IMG/VR virus record: IMGVR_UViG_3300033997_000035 | Location: 64,001 to 128,000 of that record | Direction: 5' to 3' (one strand) | Source of the DNA: a virus | Length of the DNA stretch: 64,000 nt | Shown here: positions 6,787-58,322 of the stretch, one piece after another | Numbering within the stretch: position 1 is the stretch's first letter | Layout of the letters: each line of letters opens with the position of its first letter | Position numbers and translations under genes: made by a program | The notes under the pieces: generated by a model | The model's database searches: none | Seen by the model: only the letters and a program-made list of their open reading frames with translations | Told to the model about the DNA's origin: nothing

Positions 6787-7068
6787 CTACTCAGGGCTAC
6801 TCTGGTATCTCCAAGGGTATAACTCGCGATTACGTGCTTCTTTGACCTCTAGTTTTAGCTCTGTAACACCTTCCTTCAGATACTTTACATCCTGTGACAT
6901 AATAATACTCTGCTCAAGGAGTAAATCTAGCTTAGCCTCAGATGTCTCCCTGAATTTAGTGTTAGCCTGAACTTCACTGTATAAAGATACAGTACCAACT
7001 AGCAATATTACACTCAGACTCACACTGACTGGGGCGATGTATAATTGTGCAAACTCTTTGAATGTCAT
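6787..7068 (-). CDS. Small membrane-anchored coiled-coil protein (holin/spanin-like position unknown)
   Basis: 93 residues. One transmembrane helix near residues 10-30 (IAPVSVSLSVILLVGTVSLY) followed by a heptad-rich charged region. It is the last gene of the leftward structural unit. The topology would fit an i-spanin or holin accessory protein, but no diagnostic motif is present. Confidence 0.65.
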   Translation of the reverse strand: MTFKEFAQLYIAPVSVSLSVILLVGTVSLYSEVQANTKFRETSEAKLDLLLEQSIIMSQDVKYLKEGVTELKLEVKEARNRELYPWRYQSSPE

Positions 7069-7069
7069 T

Positions 7070-7609
7070 TTACGGCCATCCTCTATATTTACGACGATCG
7101 CAGATACTACCTATAGACCAGCCATTACGTGAGTCTGAATTGGTGGCAACCTTGTCATATTGTTTCTGTGAAACACCACCGATGATGACGGAGCCAGAGT
7201 TGTTGGTGGTATATTGATCAATAGGATTGCATCCTATAGTGGAAGGGTCTGCTAAAAGGTCTTCGAGAACCTTGTCCCAGCCAGAAGCTGTCCCAGAGGA
7301 AGTACCAACATCCCACTCGACGGTAACTTGGCGCTGGCCCACTTTTTCGATCCGCTTCTTAACCTCACCTGTACCCACAGCACCAGAGGAACCTTTAGCT
7401 TCGTTACGGATTAACCACCTAAGAACATCTAAGGTAGAGTAATAAGTAATTTTACATAAATCTTCTCCATACTTACCGATGTTCATTGCGATGAGGATTT
7501 GCATATCAGCAGATGATATTAAGCTTGTACTAATGTTACCAAGAAAAAATCTTATGTAACTTTCTATTTCGTTCAAATCTGGAGGGAGTGTTGTTGGAAA
7601 CCCTGACAT
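7070..7609 (-). CDS. Putative head completion or neck protein
   Basis: 179 residues behind AGGAGATACT. Begins PTTLPPDLNEIESYIRFFLG, with a long middle helix (LDVLRWLIRNEAK) and a glycine/serine-rich C-terminal half (SGSVIIGGVSQKQYD). Its place after the capsid genes in reading direction suggests a connector role, like lambda FII-region genes. The four genes at 7730-11064 lie between it and the capsid. Assignment is by context only. Confidence 0.55.
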   Translation of the reverse strand: MSGFPTTLPPDLNEIESYIRFFLGNISTSLISSADMQILIAMNIGKYGEDLCKITYYSTLDVLRWLIRNEAKGSSGAVGTGEVKKRIEKVGQRQVTVEWDVGTSSGTASGWDKVLEDLLADPSTIGCNPIDQYTTNNSGSVIIGGVSQKQYDKVATNSDSRNGWSIGSICDRRKYRGWP

Positions 7610-7640
7610 AGTATCTCCTAAAATAATTTCAAATAATCTA

Positions 7641-7700
7641 TTGACATCTCTTAATCAGCATTATACCATTTATCCCAAGTTAACTAAATAGGTGGTTAAC
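7641..7700 (+). promoter_or_regulatory. Promoter and inverted-repeat operator candidate before the antirepressor
   Basis: TTGACA (7641-7646), 17 bases, TACCAT (7664-7669). Just downstream, two GTTAAC sites (7679-7684 and 7695-7700) lie 16 bases apart, placed like an operator near the start point. Confidence 0.45.
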
Positions 7701-7729
7701 GAAGGTAATTTTAACAAAGGAGAAATATT

Positions 7730-8458
7730 ATGAACGAAGTAAAGAAGTTTGACCATGAGTTATTTGGGCAGTTGAGCGTGATTATGTATGAGGATAAACC
7801 GCACTTCATTGCTAACGAGGTTGTAAATATCCTTGGATATAAGAACAAGAGTGAAACCTTACAATATCACTGTAAGTCTGTGATTAAATTAGATTATAGC
7901 AAAATGCTAGAATTGAAAATGGAGGCAAAACCTACTGGAATTCAAATCATCCCAGAGAGTGACGTCTACCGTTTAATCATGCGTAGTAACTTACCCAATG
8001 CTGAACAATTCCAAGACTGGGTAATGGAAGAAGTGTTACCTTCTCTACGTAAGACTGGTGGCTTCGTATCAGATGTTGACCAGATCATCGAGACATTCTA
8101 CAAGAACGAAGCTCCACACATTAAGGAAGTTATTCGTGCTGGTTTAAACTTCCAGAAGAATAACCAGCATAAGATTGACTTCGCTGATGATGTGGCAGAT
8201 GTCGTGAACTTACGTTCCATGAATGAAGTTGCTAAGGCATTTGGTGTAGGTCGAAATAAGATGTTTGCGAAGATGCGTGACTTAGGTATTCTGGATATTA
8301 AGAATGCACCGTATCAGACATACATTGATCGCGGTTACTTCAAAGTTAACCAAGTAACTAAACATAGCTTCCTGCATAATGTGACTATGGTTACAGGAAA
8401 AGGTGAAGTTTGGTTACATAAGAAGCTTAAAGAAGAATCCTTCTTGTTAGCGGCTTAA
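7730..8458 (+). CDS. ant: Phage antirepressor: BRO-N plus KilA-C-type ANT domain
   Basis: 242 residues behind AAAGGAG. An N-terminal BRO-N domain (FGQLSVIMYEDKPHFIANEVVNILGY, then NAEQFQDWVMEEVLPSLRKTGGF, split here by context) is followed by an ANT domain (SMNEVAKAFGVGRNKMFAKMRDLGI, C-terminal TGKGEVWLHKKL). Such proteins bind DNA or repressors and change phage gene expression. No repressor is seen nearby. A promoter with a paired GTTAAC site precedes it. Confidence 0.85.
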   Translation: MNEVKKFDHELFGQLSVIMYEDKPHFIANEVVNILGYKNKSETLQYHCKSVIKLDYSKMLELKMEAKPTGIQIIPESDVYRLIMRSNLPNAEQFQDWVMEEVLPSLRKTGGFVSDVDQIIETFYKNEAPHIKEVIRAGLNFQKNNQHKIDFADDVADVVNLRSMNEVAKAFGVGRNKMFAKMRDLGILDIKNAPYQTYIDRGYFKVNQVTKHSFLHNVTMVTGKGEVWLHKKLKEESFLLAA

Positions 8459-14750: not shown

Positions 14751-15299
14751 TTATGCACTTTCTTTGTTACCGACTGAGCGGTCTCCACCCTTAGAAGTTG
14801 ACTCACCTATTCCATTTGGCAACCCGCTCTCCATAGCTTCAGAACTTCTGCTGGTGTTATCAGACATATATTGCTGAATACTCTCAGGCGTAGCATCCTT
14901 ATCGAAGCGGTAATTCAATCCTAACTTACTATATATTTCATTCAGGAACTTAGGGTCACGTGCTGGGGCTAATCCAACTGCTGCCACACGTTGCAACATC
15001 TTACCAAACTCATCAATACTGATAGGTTCAATGTCACCAGCCTTAACCTTCGGCATATCTTCTGGTGAAAGTTCCCAACCATTTAATCTAAATAACTGAG
15101 GATTAATGTCAGTGTTTAATGCTTCTTCAATTACTGCAATGTCGCGCTCAATGTAGAAACTGTGGATGCTATTCATACCCTCAAGCATGTTATAGCTACC
15201 ACCTGCACCATCACCAGCGATAAGGTTACCAGCACCGAATGCGTTGTATATGGCACGTTTTCGTTGCTCGATGAGAGCTACAGTGTCAAAGTTTTTACC
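14751..15299 (-). CDS. Portal protein, exon 2 (C-terminal part)
   Basis: 183 codons after splicing. The exon starts GGT AAA AAC TTT GAC, giving GKNFDTVALIEQRKRAIYNA and FGAGNLIAGDGAGG, the standard portal segment after the GGG turn. Translation of the unspliced RNA would stop in the intron. The tail (TSKGGDRSVGNKESA) is disordered. Exons 15630-16598 and 14751-15299 together encode 505 residues. Confidence 0.85.
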   Translation of the reverse strand, partial: GKNFDTVALIEQRKRAIYNAFGAGNLIAGDGAGGSYNMLEGMNSIHSFYIERDIAVIEEALNTDINPQLFRLNGWELSPEDMPKVKAGDIEPISIDEFGKMLQRVAAVGLAPARDPKFLNEIYSKLGLNYRFDKDATPESIQQYMSDNTSRSSEAMESGLPNGIGESTSKGGDRSVGNKESA

Positions 15300-15629
15300 C
15301 GTTATGTTTTAATGGCTCGCTATACCATTATGCTTATTAGCACTCTGTGTTACCACAGAAGACCAGACTATATCTTAGCAATAAATGCTTTCACTTTTTC
15401 GAGGTGGGCTACCACCCCTACATTCTTACGAATTAGTCGTTGGAGATAAATCTAAAACCACGAGGTGTATCAAATTTTGTTCATGTGGATTTACTTTTAG
15501 ATCTTTTCCTGCTGATTAACTAAACTCTGCAATTTTTACAGGTCGTTACACATCACTGTGTAATATTGTATGAAGAGTGTAAAGTTTTTCCAGCAATTAA
15601 ATGAATTTTACGGAGGCTATGTAACCATG
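15300..15629 (-). other. Group I self-splicing intron in the portal gene
   Basis: 330 nt. On the minus strand I see P-like UUAAUUGCUGGAAA, Q-like AAUCAGCAGGAAA, R-like CAACGACUA and S AAGAUAUAGUCUGG, in this order; GACUA/UAGUC form P7 and GCUG/CAGC form P4. The 5' exon ends GGUGGU, which pairs with GCCUCC in the intron (P1, with a U.G at the splice site and one mismatch), and the intron ends in G. No ORF inside. Splicing restores IDGG-GKNFDT. Confidence 0.88.
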
Positions 15630-16598
15630 ACCACCATCGATTCCAAGGAATTTTAGCTCAAAACTACGCATACCATTACCAGACTCACTTTGTGTGTCAG
15701 AAGGTAATATTGTATAGTTCTGGTCACCTGTGTGCATATTAGCCATGTTAATTTTAAGCTGCTCAACCATAATCCCTTCTGGGCTAGTTGGGTCAGTGGC
15801 GGCACGATCTAATATGTCAGAAGGTAGATATAATATCGGTGTTCCTGAGAAGTCTTTCGTTACACCAATAAGTGTATATTCTTGGAGTAATGTTTTCTCT
15901 CGCCAAGCAGTATAACAAGTATCAAACGCTGAAACACCAAATGGTTGAGCATCCGTCCCATTGTAAGTAACCAGTGTGAGTTTGTTACGAGGAATACCTA
16001 CATAACCTAATCCACTGTTAATCACTTCAATTGGTAGGACATCCGTAGTATTCCTGAAAGCGTTTATACTCTGTCGCATCTCAAGAATATCACGGCCACC
16101 GTTAGTCACTGTAAATGGCGTGGTTGGTTGCAACGATAGTGGGTGAACATAGAGTAACTTATCTAATGTCCAATAATCTTCCCATTTACCTGCCCCTTTA
16201 CGAAATGTCTTCTCAAATGGTGCTAATCCATCTCGTTTGAATTCAGCAGCACATCTAGCAAAGCTACGAAGTGTTTGACCCCGCATGTTTTCATAACAGT
16301 AACGTAAGAACTCTGCGGCTTGTTTAGAATCTTCTGAGTAGGTATTATAACCTATCTCGTAATTAGCAAACGCTTTCTCGACTAAAATACAGTTGGCTGC
16401 GAAAGCATTTCCAACAGCATCATCAAGTAACATTTGCTGATATGTTCTAAACCTTTGGGTTTGAGATAATTCATATGGTTTGAGGATATTAACTATCGTG
16501 CGAATTGTTTCTATTGCAGGGGTAGCCAAACTCTTTTTAGATTGTCGGCTTTCCCTCGTTGAATTAGATGGTTTGGCCTTAGTAGGCGGTCTAGCCAT
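15630..16598 (-). CDS. Portal protein, exon 1 (N-terminal part)
   Basis: 323 codons from the ATG at 16598 (AAGGGAGACATTGAC before it), which is better placed than the upstream in-frame TTG at 16655. Residues include RFRTYQQMLLDDAVGNAFAANCIL, GLAPFEKTFRKG and GVSAFDTCYTAWREK, typical of the DUF935-type/lambda-like portals that form the dodecameric DNA channel of the head. The final splice-junction codons are GAT GGT GGT. Confidence 0.88.
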
Positions 16599-16672: not shown

Positions 16673-16697
16673 AAAAATAAACCCGCACTAGGCGGGT
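16673..16697 (-). terminator. Rho-independent terminator after the RNA-repair unit
   Basis: Minus strand ACCCGC / GCGGGT arms followed by TTATTTTTG, just beyond the 50-residue ORF stop. Confidence 0.8.
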
Positions 16698-16701
16698 TGA
16701 G

Positions 16702-16854
16702 CTATTTTCTGTATCCAAGGTTAACTAAATACTCTGCGATATCAACTCCATTCTCAATAGCATAATGTATTGCAGATCGAAGGTCAACTATTTGTTGCAA
16801 TTTAATCCGCGATTCAAGTAGATCGAATTCTACATCCTCTTCAGTATGTGGCAT
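16702..16854 (-). CDS. Hypothetical small protein
   Basis: 50 residues behind AAGGAGAAACACA, mostly helical and acidic (TEEDVEFDLLESRIKLQQIV). Last gene of the pnk/rnl unit. Function unknown. Confidence 0.6.
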   Translation of the reverse strand: MPHTEEDVEFDLLESRIKLQQIVDLRSAIHYAIENGVDIAEYLVNLGYRK

Positions 16855-16865
16855 TGTGTTTCTCC

Positions 16866-17750
16866 TTAGAATTCAATAAATGGATTACCAACGGATATAA
16901 TCGGAATGCCGAGTTCTACCCACAGGCGCAGAACACTTGGGCGGTCATCTACTGCAAATTGAACATTCCAGTTATCAGCGACATGTTCCCAGAATAACTC
17001 CTCCTTCACAATAGTGTCTTTCCGCATATCACCTTGCTTTCTCATGTGAAGTTCATCAACATAAATTCCATGTTGAAGTAACCAATCTTCAGTATCTTGA
17101 CGGCAAACTTCATCTCGTCCAGACATACAGACTATATAGGTATCGTCTTGTATGCCCTTAACTATATCAATTACGTGCTGATGTGGTAGGTCAGTTGATA
17201 CCTTGTCCCAATCGAAAAACCCACGACCATTTACCTTAGCAACTGTCCCATCTACGTCCAGTATCACACACTTTGGTTTGTTAACGTCTGGTGTGTAAGT
17301 TTTACGTCCAATATATTTCAGGTAGTTTTGATACTGCGTATATATGATTGTCTGACTAATACCACCTTGACGTTGATTATTTCTTTTACAAGCTTCTTCA
17401 AAGGAAATGTCGAATACTTTGAAGGATACCTCATACCCTAAATCATAAAGAATCTCGGTCAGACGATTACGAGTATTACTATTTAAATTTGTATCACTAA
17501 TGATAATATCTTTTAGCTCCGCTGCCGCATCATAGATCTTCTGGTTGCAAACCTCTGTGACACGGTTTTCATTTCCCTTGCTAAACTTATACTTTCCCCA
17601 ATCGCGAACACCATCAGAGAATAATGTAAATCGAACATCATCACGATTGATGTTTACCCACGAAGGGTTTTCAGATACAAACTTTTCAGCCCAAGTTGTT
17701 TTACCACTTGAAGATATCCCTACTGTTAAAATAGCTTGTGGTTTATACAT
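16866..17750 (-). CDS. pseT: Polynucleotide 5'-kinase / 3'-phosphatase (T4 PseT-like)
   Basis: 294 residues. N-terminal kinase with P-loop GISSSGKTTWAEKF and the INRDDVR motif; C-terminal HAD phosphatase with DVDGTVAKV, MSGRDEVCRQDTEDWL and AVDDRPSVLRLW. The domain order and length equal T4 Pnkp, which heals broken tRNA ends by removing 2',3'-cyclic phosphate and phosphorylating 5'-OH. The ATG at 17750 follows GGAGAAAGATA and overlaps the stop of the RNA ligase gene, so the two are coupled. Confidence 0.95.
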   Translation of the reverse strand: MYKPQAILTVGISSSGKTTWAEKFVSENPSWVNINRDDVRFTLFSDGVRDWGKYKFSKGNENRVTEVCNQKIYDAAAELKDIIISDTNLNSNTRNRLTEILYDLGYEVSFKVFDISFEEACKRNNQRQGGISQTIIYTQYQNYLKYIGRKTYTPDVNKPKCVILDVDGTVAKVNGRGFFDWDKVSTDLPHQHVIDIVKGIQDDTYIVCMSGRDEVCRQDTEDWLLQHGIYVDELHMRKQGDMRKDTIVKEELFWEHVADNWNVQFAVDDRPSVLRLWVELGIPIISVGNPFIEF

Positions 17751-18822
17751 TATCTTTCTCCATAATTGTTTCAATAAGCTTAACTTTATATGATGTATTT
17801 TGCTCTGTCAATACCTTTGTTACATCAACTCCAGATTTTCTTGCGGTAAACAAAACCCCACAAAAAGGTAAGTGCTTTACAGCCAAAGCAAACTCCTTTT
17901 GGTCTGCAATATCTTTAGTTGATACCATAGCCGTCTTACATCCCTCTTTTACAGTTTCCCATGCATTGACGTATTCCGTGAAATACTTCTCATCTTCTGG
18001 GAATACCGCCAAATACTCATCCTGTTCGTTGATAACCACTAACTCACGAATACGTTTAGGCGTAAGACCTTCGCCTTTAATTCGATGAGCCACCAAGTAT
18101 GAAGGAGACTTTATTTTACAAACTGGAATACCTTCACTATTGTATGCAACATACCCTTCCTCTAGGTTTGGTAAATCTTTAACTGAGTTGATACAATCTT
18201 CAGTGGATTTAAACTTGTAAATCCTTGGGCTGTGGAACTTGTGTGTTACAATCTTGTTGTAGAACCCAAACTGGTTATTGCGAATTGCAAGTAGGTAAGC
18301 TGCATCATCTTCGTAACGGACAACAACACGGTTCTCTCTACTGACAACTTCGAATATGTATGTAAAATCCTTGTCACCTTTGAATCCAGCAGTCCAGTTG
18401 AGAGAACTTTCGATTAAATCTTTCCAAGTCCTGTCGTAACCGTTGATTGTAGTCGTGGGCATGGTCATAGACTTAGTTCGATATAGCCACTCACCTTTAT
18501 AATTAAATACACTTACCAAACTACCATCTAGTTTCTCGTAACACACTAAACTGCCAATATTAGGACTATACCCGTTTTCTGAGTGGTTAAAGAAACGGTC
18601 AAACGCCCTGCTTACAACGAAAAACGTTTTACCTTTGTCTACACTACCCAACACCAAACTACGGCATTCTAGCACGATTGGGTGCGTCTTAGGACTATCT
18701 ATCTGGTCATAGTTAAGCACATAAAGGTCTGGATAAAGCTCGTTCTGTGAAACTTTGATACTAAGTTCATCAGATAAATCCTGTAGTGTTTTTGTTTCTA
18801 AATATTTTAATACGTTCATCAT
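17743..18822 (-). CDS. rnlA: T4 Rnl1-like RNA ligase
   Basis: About 359 residues. Nucleotidyltransferase motifs: I EKLDGSL with Lys97 as the AMP acceptor, ECRSLV before it, motif IIIa region YIFEVVSRENRVV, IV EEGYVAYN and V KIKSPSYL. Together with the overlapping kinase-phosphatase it should reseal tRNAs cut by host anticodon nucleases. Start is one of two adjacent ATGs (18822 or 18819) behind GGAGG; the first is chosen. It overlaps the upstream small gene by four bases. Confidence 0.93.
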   Translation of the reverse strand: MMNVLKYLETKTLQDLSDELSIKVSQNELYPDLYVLNYDQIDSPKTHPIVLECRSLVLGSVDKGKTFFVVSRAFDRFFNHSENGYSPNIGSLVCYEKLDGSLVSVFNYKGEWLYRTKSMTMPTTTINGYDRTWKDLIESSLNWTAGFKGDKDFTYIFEVVSRENRVVVRYEDDAAYLLAIRNNQFGFYNKIVTHKFHSPRIYKFKSTEDCINSVKDLPNLEEGYVAYNSEGIPVCKIKSPSYLVAHRIKGEGLTPKRIRELVVINEQDEYLAVFPEDEKYFTEYVNAWETVKEGCKTAMVSTKDIADQKEFALAVKHLPFCGVLFTARKSGVDVTKVLTEQNTSYKVKLIETIMEKDNV

Positions 18823-19133
18823 TTCTTCCTCCAACATTTATAATTCTGCACACGACCAATGTGTCTGGCCGACAATTTACGTTTGTGTGGGATATTCCCT
18901 TGGTCAATAACATACACCATACCACACTCATATTCAAGTAGATACTGATCTGTGTTACGTTCCTCTAATGTGGCGAAAGGTAATTCCTCTGGCAACATGT
19001 GGAAGTGGCACAAAGCTTTCTTCAGTGTGCGGAATGTATGATCGTTGCCGCTGTAGGCAACCACCCATGTGGTTTGTGCCAGACGGGATTTACGTGCCTC
19101 GTGGTTGGCACGATGGAGTAGTTTGCGTGACAT
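18819..19133 (-). CDS. Hypothetical basic protein
   Basis: 104 residues behind AAGGAG. Basic ends (MSRKLLHRANHEARKSRL and RVQNYKCWRKK) suggest nucleic acid contact. It overlaps the RNA ligase start, so a helper role in RNA repair is possible but not shown. Confidence 0.6.
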   Translation of the reverse strand: MSRKLLHRANHEARKSRLAQTTWVVAYSGNDHTFRTLKKALCHFHMLPEELPFATLEERNTDQYLLEYECGMVYVIDQGNIPHKRKLSARHIGRVQNYKCWRKK

Positions 19134-19148
19134 AGTGTATTCTCCTTA

Positions 19149-20105
19149 TTAAATAAACATACCACAAGCGGCACTAACATCCTCCCCAGCGGAGAATTGC
19201 ACCTTTAGTTTTCCAACTCTCAAATCACTCTCTAACATTTGAATAATTTCAGACATATGTGGGGACTCTTTATCCTCTGAGAATCCATTGTATCGTAGAA
19301 CACGGAACTCAAAACCCTCAAACACTTTATTACTATTTACAAATGAAATCAAGCTTTCTACTGAATCACTGTCGTCATTTACCCCAGTAATAAACATATA
19401 ATGAACGACCACATTGACACCTTGGGCTGATACATCTTCCAGCAACTCTAAAGTTTTCTCAATAGATTTACTGTTTGGAATAATAATATCACGGTAATTC
19501 TGGTTGTAGTGGTGCATAGAGTAGAACAAACGCACAATACTACGGTTGACATCAGAGTGGTTGTATGGGTTTAAGTTAAAACCATGTACAGTTAATGCAG
19601 CATTCATAGTAATAATACTGCCCATTAATCTGCTAGGGATGTTTGGCATAGAGGTGGCAATATCTACACCATCTAAACCTACGGCCAGCCCTTGCTTCAA
19701 TACTTTATAAATAATCTCATATGCTGAGTCACATGTGTTGTTCATATTCAGAATAGCTTCACCTTCACCCATATAACACAGTTTGATGTAACGTGTGCTG
19801 ATTGAAGGGTCTAACTCATTCACCGCTTCGATGGCCTCTATAACATTAGTGACAATGGTATCCTTTGACACAGCTTTAAATTCTTTACCAAGCTGAGTAA
19901 GGTGACAGAATGAACATGACATCTGACATCCGTGAGAGGATGAAATAATCACGGTGTATTTGTTTTTATCACATAGAATAGGATTATCACGATCCAATTG
20001 CTCAGAGGTAAAGAAACCTGACGGACTAAGCTTAATCGAGGTCTGCATCCCGTTATCGTGGATAATGTTGTAAGTGTGTTGTGTAGCAGAGTGTAAAATT
20101 TTCAT
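19149..20105 (-). CDS. RlmN/Cfr-like radical SAM methyltransferase candidate
   Basis: 318 residues behind AAGGGGAAA. The cluster motif is CQMSCSFC (CxxxCxxC, RlmN type); MGEGEAILN matches RlmN GMGEPLLN; and the C-terminal GEDVSAACGMF matches RlmN GDDIxAACGQL, keeping the second catalytic cysteine. RlmN methylates C2 of adenine in 23S rRNA and tRNA. The substrate here is unknown. It sits upstream of the RNA repair genes in the same direction, which suggests RNA modification. Shorter than RlmN (about 380) and lacks the N-terminal accessory domain. Confidence 0.82.
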   Translation of the reverse strand: MKILHSATQHTYNIIHDNGMQTSIKLSPSGFFTSEQLDRDNPILCDKNKYTVIISSSHGCQMSCSFCHLTQLGKEFKAVSKDTIVTNVIEAIEAVNELDPSISTRYIKLCYMGEGEAILNMNNTCDSAYEIIYKVLKQGLAVGLDGVDIATSMPNIPSRLMGSIITMNAALTVHGFNLNPYNHSDVNRSIVRLFYSMHHYNQNYRDIIIPNSKSIEKTLELLEDVSAQGVNVVVHYMFITGVNDDSDSVESLISFVNSNKVFEGFEFRVLRYNGFSEDKESPHMSEIIQMLESDLRVGKLKVQFSAGEDVSAACGMFI

Positions 20106-20116
20106 AATATTTCCCC

Positions 20117-20545
20117 TTATTTCATAATAGTATATTCAATATGGATATGTTCAAGTGTTTCAAAATACCCATCCCATCCGCGATTAATTACATGGTCTTG
20201 ATCATCACTTGTGGTGAATTTTAGCGTTTCATAACATTTACCTTTCTTCTCTAGTACATCACGAAATTCACGTGCGGCAGCTTCATCTAAGAATACGCCC
20301 ATTGCTTCGAACGAAGAATTCTGTCCACGCCCAAAACTATCACCGCTAGACCATTCAGCCCACACTACATAACAACGATCTCCTGCTGGAATTGAGATGG
20401 ATGAAACAATATCAGGGTATTCATTAACCTTACATATTGATCGAAATCGATTGTCAAATACCTCACTCCAAGATGACCACTCTCCTTCATCGCGATGGGA
20501 ACGGACACACCGTTGTTCGATTTCGACAGTATAGCCAAATAGCAT
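20117..20545 (-). CDS. Hypothetical protein
   Basis: 142 residues behind AAGGAG. Mixed alpha/beta composition with a tryptophan-rich N-terminal half (GEWSSWSEVF, VVWAEWSSG). No motif recognised. Part of the unit running from 21024 to 16702. Confidence 0.65.
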   Translation of the reverse strand: MLFGYTVEIEQRCVRSHRDEGEWSSWSEVFDNRFRSICKVNEYPDIVSSISIPAGDRCYVVWAEWSSGDSFGRGQNSSFEAMGVFLDEAAAREFRDVLEKKGKCYETLKFTTSDDQDHVINRGWDGYFETLEHIHIEYTIMK

Positions 20546-20556
20546 AATATTTCTCC

Positions 20557-21024
20557 TTATTTACCGATCAATACAAAACCTTCGTCATCACAATCGTTGT
20601 GGTCGTAGTATACATCACCAAACTGAGCAACTGCAATAGCAACTTGCTGCATGATTTCATCAGACTTACCCCAACAACCTAGAGAGAATATGATTTTGTC
20701 ACCAGCATAAGTATCTCGGTAGTCGGAGTTGCAATCTGGGAAAATTCCTAACATACGGTGGTTGACATCACCACATCCGAAATGAATATTCAACACTTTC
20801 ATATCATACGCAGAAATGCTCACACCGTTGGTGAACATTTTGGCTTGTGCTGTGTAATCCTCACACATTAAGAAATGGAGGCGTGACACAGCATCCGTGT
20901 GAGTTTTCCAATAGGCATCTAGTTCAGCACGAACCCAAACATTTAATTGTGCGACAACAGCATTCACTACTTCAAATAATTTATCCTTGCCGCAGGTAAC
21001 GAACAATTTAGCGTCTACAGACAT
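20557..21024 (-). CDS. Hypothetical protein
   Basis: 155 residues behind AAGGAG. First gene after a clear promoter at 21057-21085. Cysteines and aspartates near the C-terminus (DHNDCDDEG). No recognised family. Confidence 0.65.
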   Translation of the reverse strand: MSVDAKLFVTCGKDKLFEVVNAVVAQLNVWVRAELDAYWKTHTDAVSRLHFLMCEDYTAQAKMFTNGVSISAYDMKVLNIHFGCGDVNHRMLGIFPDCNSDYRDTYAGDKIIFSLGCWGKSDEIMQQVAIAVAQFGDVYYDHNDCDDEGFVLIGK

Positions 21025-21056
21025 AATATTTCTCCTTGTGTTATTTAATTGAACTA

Positions 21057-21085
21057 AGTGTATTTGATGTGGAGGAAGGTGTCAA
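21057..21085 (-). promoter_or_regulatory. Sigma70-like promoter of the RNA-repair unit
   Basis: Minus strand TTGACA (21085-21080), 17 bases, TACACT (21062-21057). The start site lies about 30 bases before the gene ending at 20557. Confidence 0.75.
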
Positions 21086-21088
21086 GAC

Positions 21089-21793
21089 CTATACCACAAT
21101 ATTTGCAATTTCTTTAGCTGACAACCCTGACTTCAACACATGTGCAACTACTGATACCACAGCAGTAATATTCTTGTCAGTGACAACACCACCATCGCGA
21201 GAGGTGATCACCTTAGAGAAGTAACCGTTATCTTCAAACTTACGCTTAGTAATAGCACAGGTTGATCGAGTATAAGCTTTCTTATAAGCATTGAAGCTGA
21301 CATTGTTATTCTCGCAGAATTTTAGGTAACTCTTAGCAATTTCAACATCACAATTAATTTCATTATTTTCCATCATAACTTTATCCTCCGATACAGATGT
21401 ATTTGAATACTCGTTACCTAGCAAACCTAAACGTTGTTTATACTTAAGTGTGAAATCGAAACCAGACTCAAGCTTACGTCTAAGAGCCTTCAGTTGCTCT
21501 CGTTCAGTTTCCGTGATACCAACATAATCACCACCTTCATCAATGATTCTGTCTTTGAGGTGATTAATGCGTTGAGTGACCACACAGCAATTATCCACAG
21601 TGTAACCTTTGGTTCTATCTATACGCTCAAGACTTCCTGTATTCAAACTTAGTTTCACGCCAGTATAATCACAGTAACCTTCTTTCATTTCGTTACGGTA
21701 GACAAGGAATTGTTCAAAAGTAAGTTCAAAGTTGATACCACGTTTTACGGAACTTTCACTTTTGTTACGATAAAGTTTTGTAACTGTAGACAT
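21089..21793 (-). CDS. HNH-type endonuclease
   Basis: 234 residues behind TAGGAGATAATTA. Residues 35-90 carry an HNH pattern seen in phage nucleases: YCDYTGVKLSL, SLERIDRTKGYTVDNCCVV, RINHLKD. The C-terminal part is helical and may bind DNA. Probably a free-standing homing endonuclease. It lies directly downstream (in reading direction) of TerL, beyond the terminator, with its own promoter. Confidence 0.75.
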   Translation of the reverse strand: MSTVTKLYRNKSESSVKRGINFELTFEQFLVYRNEMKEGYCDYTGVKLSLNTGSLERIDRTKGYTVDNCCVVTQRINHLKDRIIDEGGDYVGITETEREQLKALRRKLESGFDFTLKYKQRLGLLGNEYSNTSVSEDKVMMENNEINCDVEIAKSYLKFCENNNVSFNAYKKAYTRSTCAITKRKFEDNGYFSKVITSRDGGVVTDKNITAVVSVVAHVLKSGLSAKEIANIVV

Positions 21794-21891: not shown

Positions 21892-21927
21892 ATAAAGAAA
21901 AGCCACCTACAGAGGATGTAAGTGGCC
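21892..21927 (-). terminator. Rho-independent terminator after TerL
   Basis: Minus strand GCCACTT...GTGGCT arms followed by TTTTCTTTATC, 60 bases past the TerL stop. Confidence 0.75.
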
Positions 21928-21987: not shown

Positions 21988-23424
21988 CTAGCGGATTTGT
22001 TTACGGTGCCCAGCGAGGAGTGTGGGGGCGTTGATTTCGGGGAGGGCGACGGCTTTGTGGACTTTTATCTTTTGACAAGAAGCATACGCACTTGAAAAAC
22101 AGTCAACTAGATCGTCATGGTATCCGTTATTTTTCTTACCGTCGAAGTTTTCTAGCTCAAGCAGCATGTAGTCCCACACAGAAGGATGGAAACTGGACTT
22201 GACCCAGAACACATCCCCCCGATAACACGCTGCTGCAAAAGGTTCAAACCTAAGTCGCTTAGAACGGTTACTGACAGAAGCATCCTGTTTAACTATAAAA
22301 CCCTCTGCTGCAAGCTTCTTAGCACTCTCTTGAAATTCAACAACCCCTGCTTGGCCTAAATCTTTTGGGAAGACAACTACAGTATCAACACCGTCTAAAA
22401 ATGCCTGACGTTCTATATGTTCATCCCTTTGACCGGGCTTTTCACGTATCCTTGCTATTTGGACACCATCTTTATCTTCAACATAATCTCCCATGACATA
22501 TATATTGTTGTATTTATCTTTTGCAAACTTAATACTGGCTGTATAGTCAGGATCTAACTGCGAAGAATCTCCTCCCTCCGTGGAAGGTTTAGAGGATGCT
22601 TTATCCCAAGCACGTAGATATGTACAACCCATAGGTTCTCTCTCGACAACCTGTATGGTGTTCCTATCCCATACGCCATTTGATGCAGGTTTCCAAAGCC
22701 AGTTACCTTCTAACAACAATGCTGCGTTAGCTGGGTCGTTTGCCCGAAGGTCATCCTCGTATTCACTGTTGTTTAACAACATTGCTGGGTTATCTGCAAG
22801 CGAACTTGGCACCATCGTATATTTACGTGGCTTCTTGTTTGGGAACATTTCTATCAACTCATTTTCATCCCAAGAAGTGATAGTTTGCCCTTTGTCCACC
22901 ACATAATACGCCATACGACCAGAGTATTCTTTGATAGCAAATCCAGTCTTTTGGTCGATAAACCTAGCTAAATATTTAAGACAGAAGTGATTAGGCTCTG
23001 GGTTTAATGTGCATCGGATAAAAGATTGATACTTACTCTTACTTCGCATACGTGTACGAATGTAGTTAAAGGCAAATTCTGAGTGGTTACCGAACTCTTC
23101 GAAATATGCCCCAGTAAGCTGTGCCCCCTGCCAGTTCTTCTTAATCTCCGCTTCTATATCTAAAAAGGAAAACTCAACTTTAGCTCCACTAGGGAATATG
23201 ATTACTTTATCCTTTTCCCTGATCTGAGCCTTACCTATAAACTTACCTTTGTTTGGGCCAGATTGATGCTTAAGGAAGGGGTCATACATTTCTTTAGCTT
23301 CAGGCCATAAGGTGCGTTCTATCTGTTTAACTGTGTTACGGAAGAATACTAAATACGCATGAGGACAATCCACATACTTTAGGGCATCAAATAGTATGGC
23401 CCAACTTTTCCCGCCGCCCGCTGC
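21988..23424 (-). CDS. terL: Terminase large subunit, exon 2
   Basis: 479 codons. After splicing the exon begins AAGGKSWAILFDALKYV, completing the Walker A loop. Further: a Walker B-like GAYFEEFG, and nuclease-domain motifs RAWDKASS, DPDYTASIKF and the C-terminal HDDLVDCFSSAY. It packages DNA into proheads by ATP-driven translocation and cuts the concatemer. The full protein is 510 residues with exon 1. Confidence 0.95.
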   Translation of the reverse strand, partial: AAGGGKSWAILFDALKYVDCPHAYLVFFRNTVKQIERTLWPEAKEMYDPFLKHQSGPNKGKFIGKAQIREKDKVIIFPSGAKVEFSFLDIEAEIKKNWQGAQLTGAYFEEFGNHSEFAFNYIRTRMRSKSKYQSFIRCTLNPEPNHFCLKYLARFIDQKTGFAIKEYSGRMAYYVVDKGQTITSWDENELIEMFPNKKPRKYTMVPSSLADNPAMLLNNSEYEDDLRANDPANAALLLEGNWLWKPASNGVWDRNTIQVVEREPMGCTYLRAWDKASSKPSTEGGDSSQLDPDYTASIKFAKDKYNNIYVMGDYVEDKDGVQIARIREKPGQRDEHIERQAFLDGVDTVVVFPKDLGQAGVVEFQESAKKLAAEGFIVKQDASVSNRSKRLRFEPFAAACYRGDVFWVKSSFHPSVWDYMLLELENFDGKKNNGYHDDLVDCFSSAYASCQKIKVHKAVALPEINAPTLLAGHRKQIR

Positions 23425-29614: not shown

Positions 29615-29690
29615 TGGAGCAACATATCAGTTTCGAACTGATGACCTTCTGGTTGGAAGCCAGACGCTCTACCTACTGAGCTAATGTTGC
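29615..29690 (-). tRNA. tRNA-Gly, anticodon TCC
   Basis: 76 nt cloverleaf: acceptor GCAACAT/ATGTTGC, D-arm GCTCAGTAGGTAGAGC, anticodon stem TCTGG/CCAGA with loop CTTCCAA, T-arm ATCAG-TTCGAAA-CTGAT, discriminator T and encoded CCA. It reads GGA/GGG-type glycine codons. It is the only clear tRNA in the window and is first in its transcript. Confidence 0.95.
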
Positions 29691-55912: not shown

Positions 55913-57158
55913 TTGAGTATTATTAAAACAGTAGTAAAACGTGACGGTAGTGAACAAGAATTTTCGCCTGAGAAGTTAAATCGTTGGGCTGAGTATGCCA
56001 CTAAAACTGGCGGTAACTGGAGTGAAATCTCACTTGAGACATATAAGCGATTACCCGATAAAGTAAAGACATCTGATATCCACCAGACAATGATTAACGT
56101 TTGTTTGGATAAAGAACAAATTGAATATTCTCGGGTTGCTGCCCGTCTTGAACATGCACGTATCAGGAAAACTTTAGATTCATATGGTATCCGAGACTCT
56201 GGTAGCTTTAAGGATATCTACAACTTCATGTTAGAAAAGGGTGTTTGGAGTAAAGAGGCATTACCTCCATACAACCCTGAGTGGGAAGCGTGGTATAAGG
56301 AAATTTATAACAATAAGCTTGAATATTGGCAAATTAAACAGTGGTCAGATAAATACTCTCGTAAGTTAGACGGTAAGGTGATTGAGACGCCTCATATCGG
56401 TGCAATGGGTATTGGTCTAGGGTTTCATGGTGATACGGAAACAGCACGTAAGTTGGCTAGAGGTATCATTGAAGGTAAGATTAACCTGCCAACACCTGCA
56501 CTAAACGGTGTGCGAAATAATGACTTTAATACCATCAGTTGTTGTGTAATCACAGGTGGCGATAGTGTTGATAGCATTCTTACTGCAACACACCTAAGTG
56601 CTTTATTCACTAGCAAGAAAAGTGGTATCGGTGTGGAGTTGGATACACGTTCCAAAGGTGACCCAGTTAAAGGCGGGGCAGTTGATCACTTAGGTAAGCA
56701 CAGTCTGTATGCCTCTGTAGACACGGCAGTAAAATTATTTACACAGATTACACGTGGAGGAAGTGCTACGGTTACATTTAAGTGCATTGACCCAGAAGCT
56801 GAACAAATCTGCTTGTGGAAAACACAGCGTGTAGACGTAGAAACTCGTCTGGATAAGATTGACTACAGTATGGCTTACAATAACGCATTCTTGGAAGCTG
56901 TGGTTAAAGGCGATGACTGGTATCTGTTTAGTCTTAAGAATGCACCAGAAGCCCATGAGGCGTTCTATAAGCCACAAACGACACTAGCTGACTACAAGGA
57001 CATGGCTAATCGCTTACCTCACGTTGTAGTGAAGGCTAGGGACTTACTGAAGACATTTTTAATTGCACGTAACGAAACTGGGCGTGTATATTGTTTCAAC
57101 GTATCACGAGCTAATGAACATACCCCGTTCTCAGATAGAATTAGTTTATCAAATCTGT
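55913..57158 (+). CDS. nrdA: Class I ribonucleotide reductase alpha subunit, exon 1
   Basis: TTG start behind AAGGAGAATAGTAG. VVKRDGSEQEFSPEKLNRW is a short ATP-cone start, DFNTISCCVITGGDSVDSI holds the first redox cysteine, and SGIGVELDTRSKG follows. The exon ends in SDRISLSNL plus T, the first base of the catalytic cysteine codon. Without splicing translation stops at once at UAA. Full protein 730 residues. Confidence 0.95.
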
Positions 57159-57375
57159 AAATGGTGCAGCATTATGTGGCGACATGTAATGAAAACTATG
57201 TGAATTCTTGGGAAGCTATGTAGCTAATCAAGAGCCGTTAATTCGGTGTAGAGACTAACCTTATAGGTGTAGGGGTATTAGTATGCCTCGAAGCGCAAAG
57301 CAACCCAAGTGGTTGATGATATAGTCCGATAACGTAGGGAACTACGGAAGAAGTGTAGCGACTTCAAAACTAAAG
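57159..57375 (+). other. Group I self-splicing intron in nrdA
   Basis: 217 nt, no ORF. 5' exon CUGU pairs with intron GCAG (P1, U.G at the cut). R-like GGUGUAGAGACUAACC and S-like GAUGAUAUAGUCCG build P7; the intron ends in G. Joining T|GC restores SNL-C-QEICLPT, the conserved radical-cysteine motif. Confidence 0.93.
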
Positions 57376-58322
57376 GCCAAGAAATCTGCTTACCAACTAA
57401 AGCATACACAGGGATTAAGGACTTATACTCTGATAATAGTGTAGGTGAGACAGCATTCTGTGTGCTATCTGCAATCAATGTGCAGAACGTAGACAAGTCT
57501 GAATACGAAGATGTTGCAGAAACCGTATTACGCACAGTTGATGTGATGATCGACAAAGCTGTAATGCCAAGTAAGAGTTTGGAAGCTAAAATTAAAATGC
57601 GTAGGAGTGTTGGTGTGGGTATTACAGGGTTGGCTGGCTACCTATACAAACAGGGATTAGATTATGACGGTAGTGAGAAATCACTTGAAGTAGTGAGTGA
57701 ACTGGCTGAACGTCATTACTACTACTTACTCAAGGCATCACAGAAGATTGCAGCAGAAGAAGGGTATGAGATTGAAGGTGTGGATTTAAACTGGTTACCA
57801 GTAGATACACGTATCAACCAGCACCCCTTGAAGTTAGATTGGGAAGCTCTACGTGGCAAGCAACGTAAGCATAGTGTGTTAGTTGCACATATGCCCACTG
57901 CAAGCTCTGCTACATTCTCTAATGCAACGTCAGGGTTATACCCTCAACGCAATAAAGTGATTAACAATAAATCGCGTAAAGGCTTGGTGCAGTATATTTG
58001 TGAATGGTTTGATGATAGTAAATTTAAGTCTGCTTGGAAAGTTGACAACATCACCCTAAGTAAGTATTATTCTGTTATCCAAGACATGACTGACCAAGGT
58101 ATCAGCGCAGACTACTACTTTGACCCAAGTCAATATGCAGACGAGAAGAAACCGTTATCTGAGCTGATGAAAGAGTGGGTTGCTCAAGCTAAACTTGGTA
58201 ACAAGAGTATGTATTACATCAACACTCGTGACTATAACGGTGGTAGTTACCAAGATACACTTAAGTCCGCTGAAGTGGTGGAAGAAGTTGGTGGATGTGA
58301 CAGTGGTGGCTGTAAATTATAA
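57376..58322 (+). CDS. nrdA: Class I ribonucleotide reductase alpha subunit, exon 2
   Basis: Begins GC CAA GAA ATC TGC and supplies QEICLPTKAYTG, LCVLSAINVQN-like AFCVLSAINVQNVD, and the conserved MPTASSATFSNATSGLYP loop. The C-terminal tail GGCDSGGCKL carries the two redox-shuttle cysteines. With NrdB it makes dNDPs aerobically. Confidence 0.95.

Follow-up and report, generated by a model that had tools for sequence, protein, structure and literature searches.

The described systems closest to the locus studied in this work are the tRNA-repair pair of phage T4, composed of Pnkp and the RNA ligase Rnl1, the radical-SAM methylases RlmN and Cfr, and the bacterial Pnkp-Hen1 and Pnkp1-Rnl-Hen1 systems. 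The N-terminal helical domain of Cfr and RlmN has been described as RNA-binding (PMC13001441). Moreover, one cysteine, C118 in RlmN and C105 in Cfr, is reported to be indispensable, and the alanine variants remain cross-linked to RNA (PMC5130265, PMC9692996, PMC13001441). In the initial annotation of the DNA analysed here, a PNK, an Rnl1-type ligase and an RlmN-like enzyme were assigned to a single operon, and combined healing and methylation was regarded as new. This concept already has a precedent in Pnkp-Hen1 and Pnkp1-Rnl-Hen1; what would be new is the use of a C-methylating radical enzyme.

The window, i.e. the whole 64,000-nucleotide stretch that was analysed, covers positions 64001-128000 of a 128,076-base IMG/VR virus record. 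Its large terminase is 78-79% identical to ORF128 of Vibrio phage ICP1 (79% over 470 aa), and therefore the phage is considered ICP1-like. The terminase and portal genes are 228 bp apart in ICP1, whereas their spacing in the window is ~5.4 kb, and the gap is filled by the genes from that of the HNH-type protein to the 50-aa ORF (Table 1). This minus-strand insert of ~5.3 kb is absent from ICP1, in which no Rnl1-family ligase was found either. Because of the extra spacing and the lack of Rnl1 in ICP1, the genes were taken as an accessory insert outside the conserved phage core. The HNH-type protein is probably a homing-type neighbour, judging from its translation; PADLOC gave only weak matches for it and nothing meaningful overall. 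The exons of the intron-split portal gene match residues 23-332 and 333-499 of ICP1 ORF127. A second group I intron lies between ORFs 55913-57160 and 57462-58322, which read as halves of a ribonucleotide reductase large subunit.

Table 1. Features of the insert, its borders and other sites in the window (window positions).
Feature	Position	Strand	Basis or remark
Portal gene, ICP1 ORF127 homologue, split by a group I intron	14754..16598	-	right border of insert
Group I intron in portal gene	15343..15671	-	Rfam RF00028, 54.3 bits
Terminator-like hairpin, end of unit	16680..16698	-	terminator-like sites overall not above chance
50-aa ORF after PNK	16702..16854	-	
T4-type PNK, 294 aa from ATG	16866..17750	-	motifs GISSSGKT, DVDGT, SGRD, VDDR
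Rnl1-type RNA ligase, 364 aa	17743..18837	-	motifs KLDGS, EGYVA, KIKS
104-aa ORF	18819..19133	-	phrog_23475
Radical-SAM protein, 318 aa	19149..20105	-	truncated RlmN/Cfr fold
Exact leader site	20103..20118	-	
142-aa ORF	20117..20545	-	weak phrog_10176 match
Exact leader site	20543..20558	-	
155-aa ORF	20557..21024	-	profile match to phrog_15323 (function unknown)
Exact leader site	21022..21037	-	
Candidate sigma70-like promoter, TTGACA-17-TACACT	21057..21085	-	motif
HNH-type protein, 234 aa, adjoins terminase	21089..21793	-	read from translation
Terminator-like hairpin after terminase	21901..21927	-	terminator-like sites overall not above chance
Large terminase, ICP1 ORF128 homologue	21988..23421	-	left border of insert
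Exact leader site	7717..7732	+	
tRNA-Gly	29615..29690		
Second group I intron	57138..57348	+	58.2 bits

The genes between 16866 and 20105, the interval originally proposed, are consecutive and on one strand, but the unit begins upstream of it with two more ORFs, up to 21024. The 104-aa ORF overlaps the ligase gene, which in turn overlaps the PNK gene by 8 nt. An exact 16-nt translation leader, AAGGRGAAATATTATG, stands at the starts of the consecutive genes of the 155-aa ORF, the 142-aa ORF and the radical-SAM protein. It has four exact sites in the window, and with up to two mismatches the number rises to 7 against 0.14 expected. The idea of one promoter for the unit has a plausible site in its favour (Table 1); on the other hand, promoter-like sites in the stretch are not above chance (34 vs a chance mean of 26.9, sd 5.4), and one of equal quality lies at 17811-17783. 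A homologue of the 155-aa ORF is also found near Rnl1-PNK in Pseudoalteromonas phage J2-1. The 104-aa ORF resembles the C-terminal half of a ~208-aa protein family common to many Vibrio phages; in phage 277E43-1, the gene of the ~208-aa protein lies near DUF1768 and HD-domain genes.

The PNK matched PF25109 (1.9e-42), phrog_505 (5.2e-100) and T4 PNK (3.8e-56) over nearly its full length, and its P-loop kinase domain is followed by a HAD phosphatase domain with DVDGT, as in T4-type enzymes. The ORF first delimited as 16866-17774 is a real gene, although its TTG start lies upstream of the likely ATG start at 17750. This ATG is placed inside the last codons of the ligase gene, which confirms the reported overlap of the two genes. 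The ligase matched PF09511 over the cut-off (1.5e-12) and T4 Rnl1 (1e-16), and carries motifs I (KxDGS), IV (EGYVA) and V (KIKS), common to its relatives. Its score of 78.6 bits is below the TIGR02308 equivalog cut-off of 242.25, and by this profile the ligase is classed as Rnl1-type and not as an equivalog of T4 RnlA. The match of both enzymes, with their catalytic motifs, to the T4 tRNA-repair pair was thus correctly recognized from the start, and the assignment as a T4-like pair for tRNA healing and sealing is well supported by homology. Rnl1 and PNK genes are also adjacent or overlapping in Pseudoalteromonas phages J2-1 and HM1, Vibrio phage vB_CoeS_P1, and Pseudomonas phages phiPMW and SYP. 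In the locus of vB_CoeS_P1 (6965-8033), Rnl1 appears frameshifted near its 3' end, and the match goes on in another frame at 7845-8033. The pair in the window is of a known kind, an ordinary T4-type repair module. By analogy with T4, we infer that it would counter an anticodon nuclease. With regard to the tRNA theme emphasized in the initial annotation, the tRNA-Gly gene elsewhere in the window is real, and the PTH2-like protein does match PF01981 but at a sub-threshold score (20.9 bits vs a cut-off of 23).

The best profile matches of the radical-SAM protein are the RlmN and Cfr families, both far under the cut-offs: 74.4 bits vs 290 for TIGR00048, and likewise far below the NCBIfam Cfr cut-offs. 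The protein was modelled with AlphaFold2 from an alignment of 40 sequences (pLDDT 86.5). By comparing the model with known folds, RlmN came out as the best match (5hr7, Z 24.9, rmsd 2.5, 261 residues), followed by Cfr (Z 18.9) and then by unrelated radical-SAM enzymes from 14.7 down. Residue 1 of the model aligns to RlmN residue 82 (aligned span 82-360), and so the N-terminal HhH2-type domain is missing. The CxxxCxxC cluster (C60/C64/C67) is present in an RlmN-type barrel, and the methyl-carrying cysteine C314 (RlmN C355, Cfr C338) is present in a C-terminal CG motif. However, the position of the resolving cysteine (RlmN C118, Cfr C105) is occupied by I53, and the earlier statement that both catalytic cysteine contexts are present does not hold. 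The designation as an RlmN/Cfr-like enzyme is justified by the fold, the cluster motif and the methyl-carrying cysteine, but not by the score, the domain content or the resolving residue; the protein is neither RlmN nor Cfr.

The same truncation and absence of C118 were observed in ~80 relatives in large phages and bacterial contigs, collected from 62 IMG/VR loci, named phages and 20 bacterial contigs. All 62 loci came from an IMG/VR scan with a nine-row alignment; scans with the single radical-SAM protein or a two-row alignment gave no loci, and a scan with the window's clade alone gave only two, both already known. This clade has three members: the window protein, L021/L022 (48% identical) and the protein of Klebsiella phage 05F01 (40%). 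Nearly all relatives keep the cysteines of the cluster and the equivalent of C355. Outside the window's clade, position 118 is Y in 77 of 78 aligned members, the remaining row being a fragment, and position 174 is N in 76 of 78. Within the clade, position 118 is I, I and V, and position 174 is C in 3/3 (C110 of the window protein) compared with 0/78 in the sister family. In the RlmN rows, position 118 is C and position 174 is either V or S. The two positions covary in three states, which are C/V(S) in RlmN, Y/N in most relatives, and I or V/C in the window's clade. In a tree that took in the RlmN rows and not Cfr, each of the three groups fell on one side of a branch with support of 99, 93 and 99, obtained by a quick method and with long branches. 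The covariation suggests that the second cysteine was relocated to C110. M176 of RlmN, two residues along the same strand, reportedly lies next to the catalytic thiyl radical (PMC9692996), and therefore position 174 should face the same side. Beyond the cluster, C314 and C110, no other replacement cysteine is conserved in the three sequences of the clade. C110 may now serve in place of C118, although a proposal drawn from three sequences has a thin base. Furthermore, the E105 equivalent, E in 95% of the family set, is T33, R or V in the window's clade, in a region of uncertain local alignment; it seems to be missing, which counts against a simple RlmN mechanism. For comparison with this C118-less family, Tunturiibacter phage Tunturi_5 encodes a truncated RlmN-like protein (1881-2879 of its locus) with C118 kept.

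The radical-SAM gene is tied to RNA repair by gene adjacency in a single genome: it was seen next to the ligase and PNK genes in this genome only. The same linkage was sought in 05F01, L021/L022, Dolichocephalovirinae, Phabio, Psa21 and Tunturi_5, as well as in the relatives of the ligase-PNK pair, and it was absent. No Rnl1 was found in the closest radical-SAM relatives (L021/L022 and 05F01), and the search with the radical-SAM protein returned no match in the closest Rnl1-PNK phages. A conserved association of repair-enzyme and methylase genes, as for Pnkp-Hen1, is not seen in this single occurrence. The ligase genes in other carriers of the radical-SAM gene lie kilobases away, and RtcB is present in several of these carriers. 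Since jumbo phages often encode RNA ligases anyway (PMC7824862), finding such genes in many carriers is weak evidence; the co-occurrence counts cover carriers of the radical-SAM gene only and were not taken as proof. In Pseudomonas phage Psa21, the RlmN-like gene has a tRNA-Leu gene on one side and, ~1 kb away on the other, a gene for an RtcB RNA ligase. The recurrent neighbours of the relatives were considered as functional partners and rejected; they reflect shared phage lineages and antisense ORFs. No literature was found on RlmN-like phage proteins together with an RNA ligase.

We hypothesize, with a probability of about 0.6, that the insert serves as an accessory cassette, most likely for counter-defence, in which a T4-like repair pair is combined with a separate C118-less branch of the RlmN/Cfr fold. 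From homology and motifs, PNK would act on tRNA cleaved in the anticodon loop, presumably by a host nuclease, removing the 2',3'-cyclic phosphate or 3'-phosphate and phosphorylating the 5'-OH, and Rnl1 would seal the healed ends, as in T4. The radical-SAM protein has probably retained the first half of the class A mechanism, i.e. a methyl on C314 activated by the 5'-deoxyadenosyl radical. Another residue would then finish the reaction; in the window's clade, C110 of the neighbouring barrel strand is the most likely one. The most likely substrate would be an adenine in RNA, perhaps in a tRNA. Loss of the HhH2-type domain takes away a known RNA contact and counts against this reading.

The radical-SAM protein has somewhat less than an even chance of acting alone, on rRNA, mRNA, DNA or a nucleotide, and merely sharing the cargo slot with the repair genes. 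This is consistent with its missing RNA-binding domain and with the ~80 relatives, which occur in many settings without adjacent Rnl1-PNK; that of 05F01 lies beside anaerobic ribonucleotide reductase. On the other hand, the two nearest folds, RlmN and Cfr, are those of RNA methylases, and the RtcB gene nearby in Psa21 and the RNA ligases of many carriers also speak against this possibility. By analogy with Hen1, the radical-SAM enzyme could instead methylate an anticodon-loop adenine (A37-like) of the tRNA repaired by PNK and Rnl1, so that it resists renewed cleavage. RlmN methylates A37 beside the anticodon (PMC5130265), repaired tRNA that Hen1 has methylated resists the same toxin (PMC4411300), the best fold match is RlmN cross-linked to tRNA, and the genes are in one cluster. 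Nevertheless, we consider this unlikely, given that the linkage is seen nowhere else and that the protein lacks C118, the N-terminal domain and, probably, E105. Moreover, C2 methylation of A37 would leave unblocked the 2'-OH used by metal-independent nucleases. It is quite improbable that the complete sequence takes place, in which cut tRNA would be healed, sealed and then C-methylated by a truncated radical-SAM methylase with its second cysteine moved from 118 to C110 (position 174). Finally, the C118A variant of RlmN and the C105A variant of Cfr remain covalently attached to RNA and the window protein is without a cysteine at position 118, but a permanent thioether cross-link without a working resolving residue, which would make the protein a single-use RNA tagger or inhibitor and not a methylase, is very improbable, as the clade-invariant C110 and the invariant Y/N of the sister family look like replacements and not like simple loss.

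The altered radical-SAM branch, a little-described family with covarying positions 118 and 174, is the more interesting part compared with the repair pair. The phage and bacterial set, which keeps the methyl-carrying cysteine and has the resolving cysteine replaced in two distinct, covarying ways, is a natural test of cross-link resolution in RlmN and Cfr. If true, the relocation from C118 to C110 would represent a novel arrangement of catalytic residues in class A radical methylation. Should the enzyme act on tRNA that PNK and the ligase have repaired, it would be the phage equivalent of the 'repair with immunity' of Pnkp-Hen1.

By comparing the locus with known systems, the repair pair is closest to T4 Pnkp and Rnl1 (RnlA), with the same enzymes, PNK and ligase domain order, catalytic motifs and likely substrates. 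It differs from T4 in that its genes overlap in one unit and adjoin a radical-SAM gene, and in the ligase score (78.6 bits, TIGR02308 cut-off 242). The radical-SAM protein shares with RlmN, the m2A2503 and m2A37 methylase, the radical-SAM barrel, CxxxCxxC, and Cys355 with the CG motif (Z 24.9), but it is without the N-terminal domain and C118 and reaches 74 bits vs 290. With Cfr, the m8A2503 methylase, it shares the fold (Z 18.9) and the methyl-carrying cysteine, but not the C105 equivalent or the HhH2 domain. The bacterial Pnkp-Hen1 and Pnkp1-Rnl-Hen1 systems likewise combine RNA repair with a methylase, and the three-protein version has a T4-like PNK and a ligase. However, Hen1 is a 2'-O-methyltransferase that is physically in the complex, whereas the methylase candidate of the window is a radical-SAM protein encoded next to the repair enzymes. 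The phrog_27142 'Fe-S-cluster redox domain-containing' proteins, found in large phages, are divergently related to the window protein (4e-22); they have the same truncation and absence of C118, but carry Y/N at positions 118/174 in place of I or V/C.
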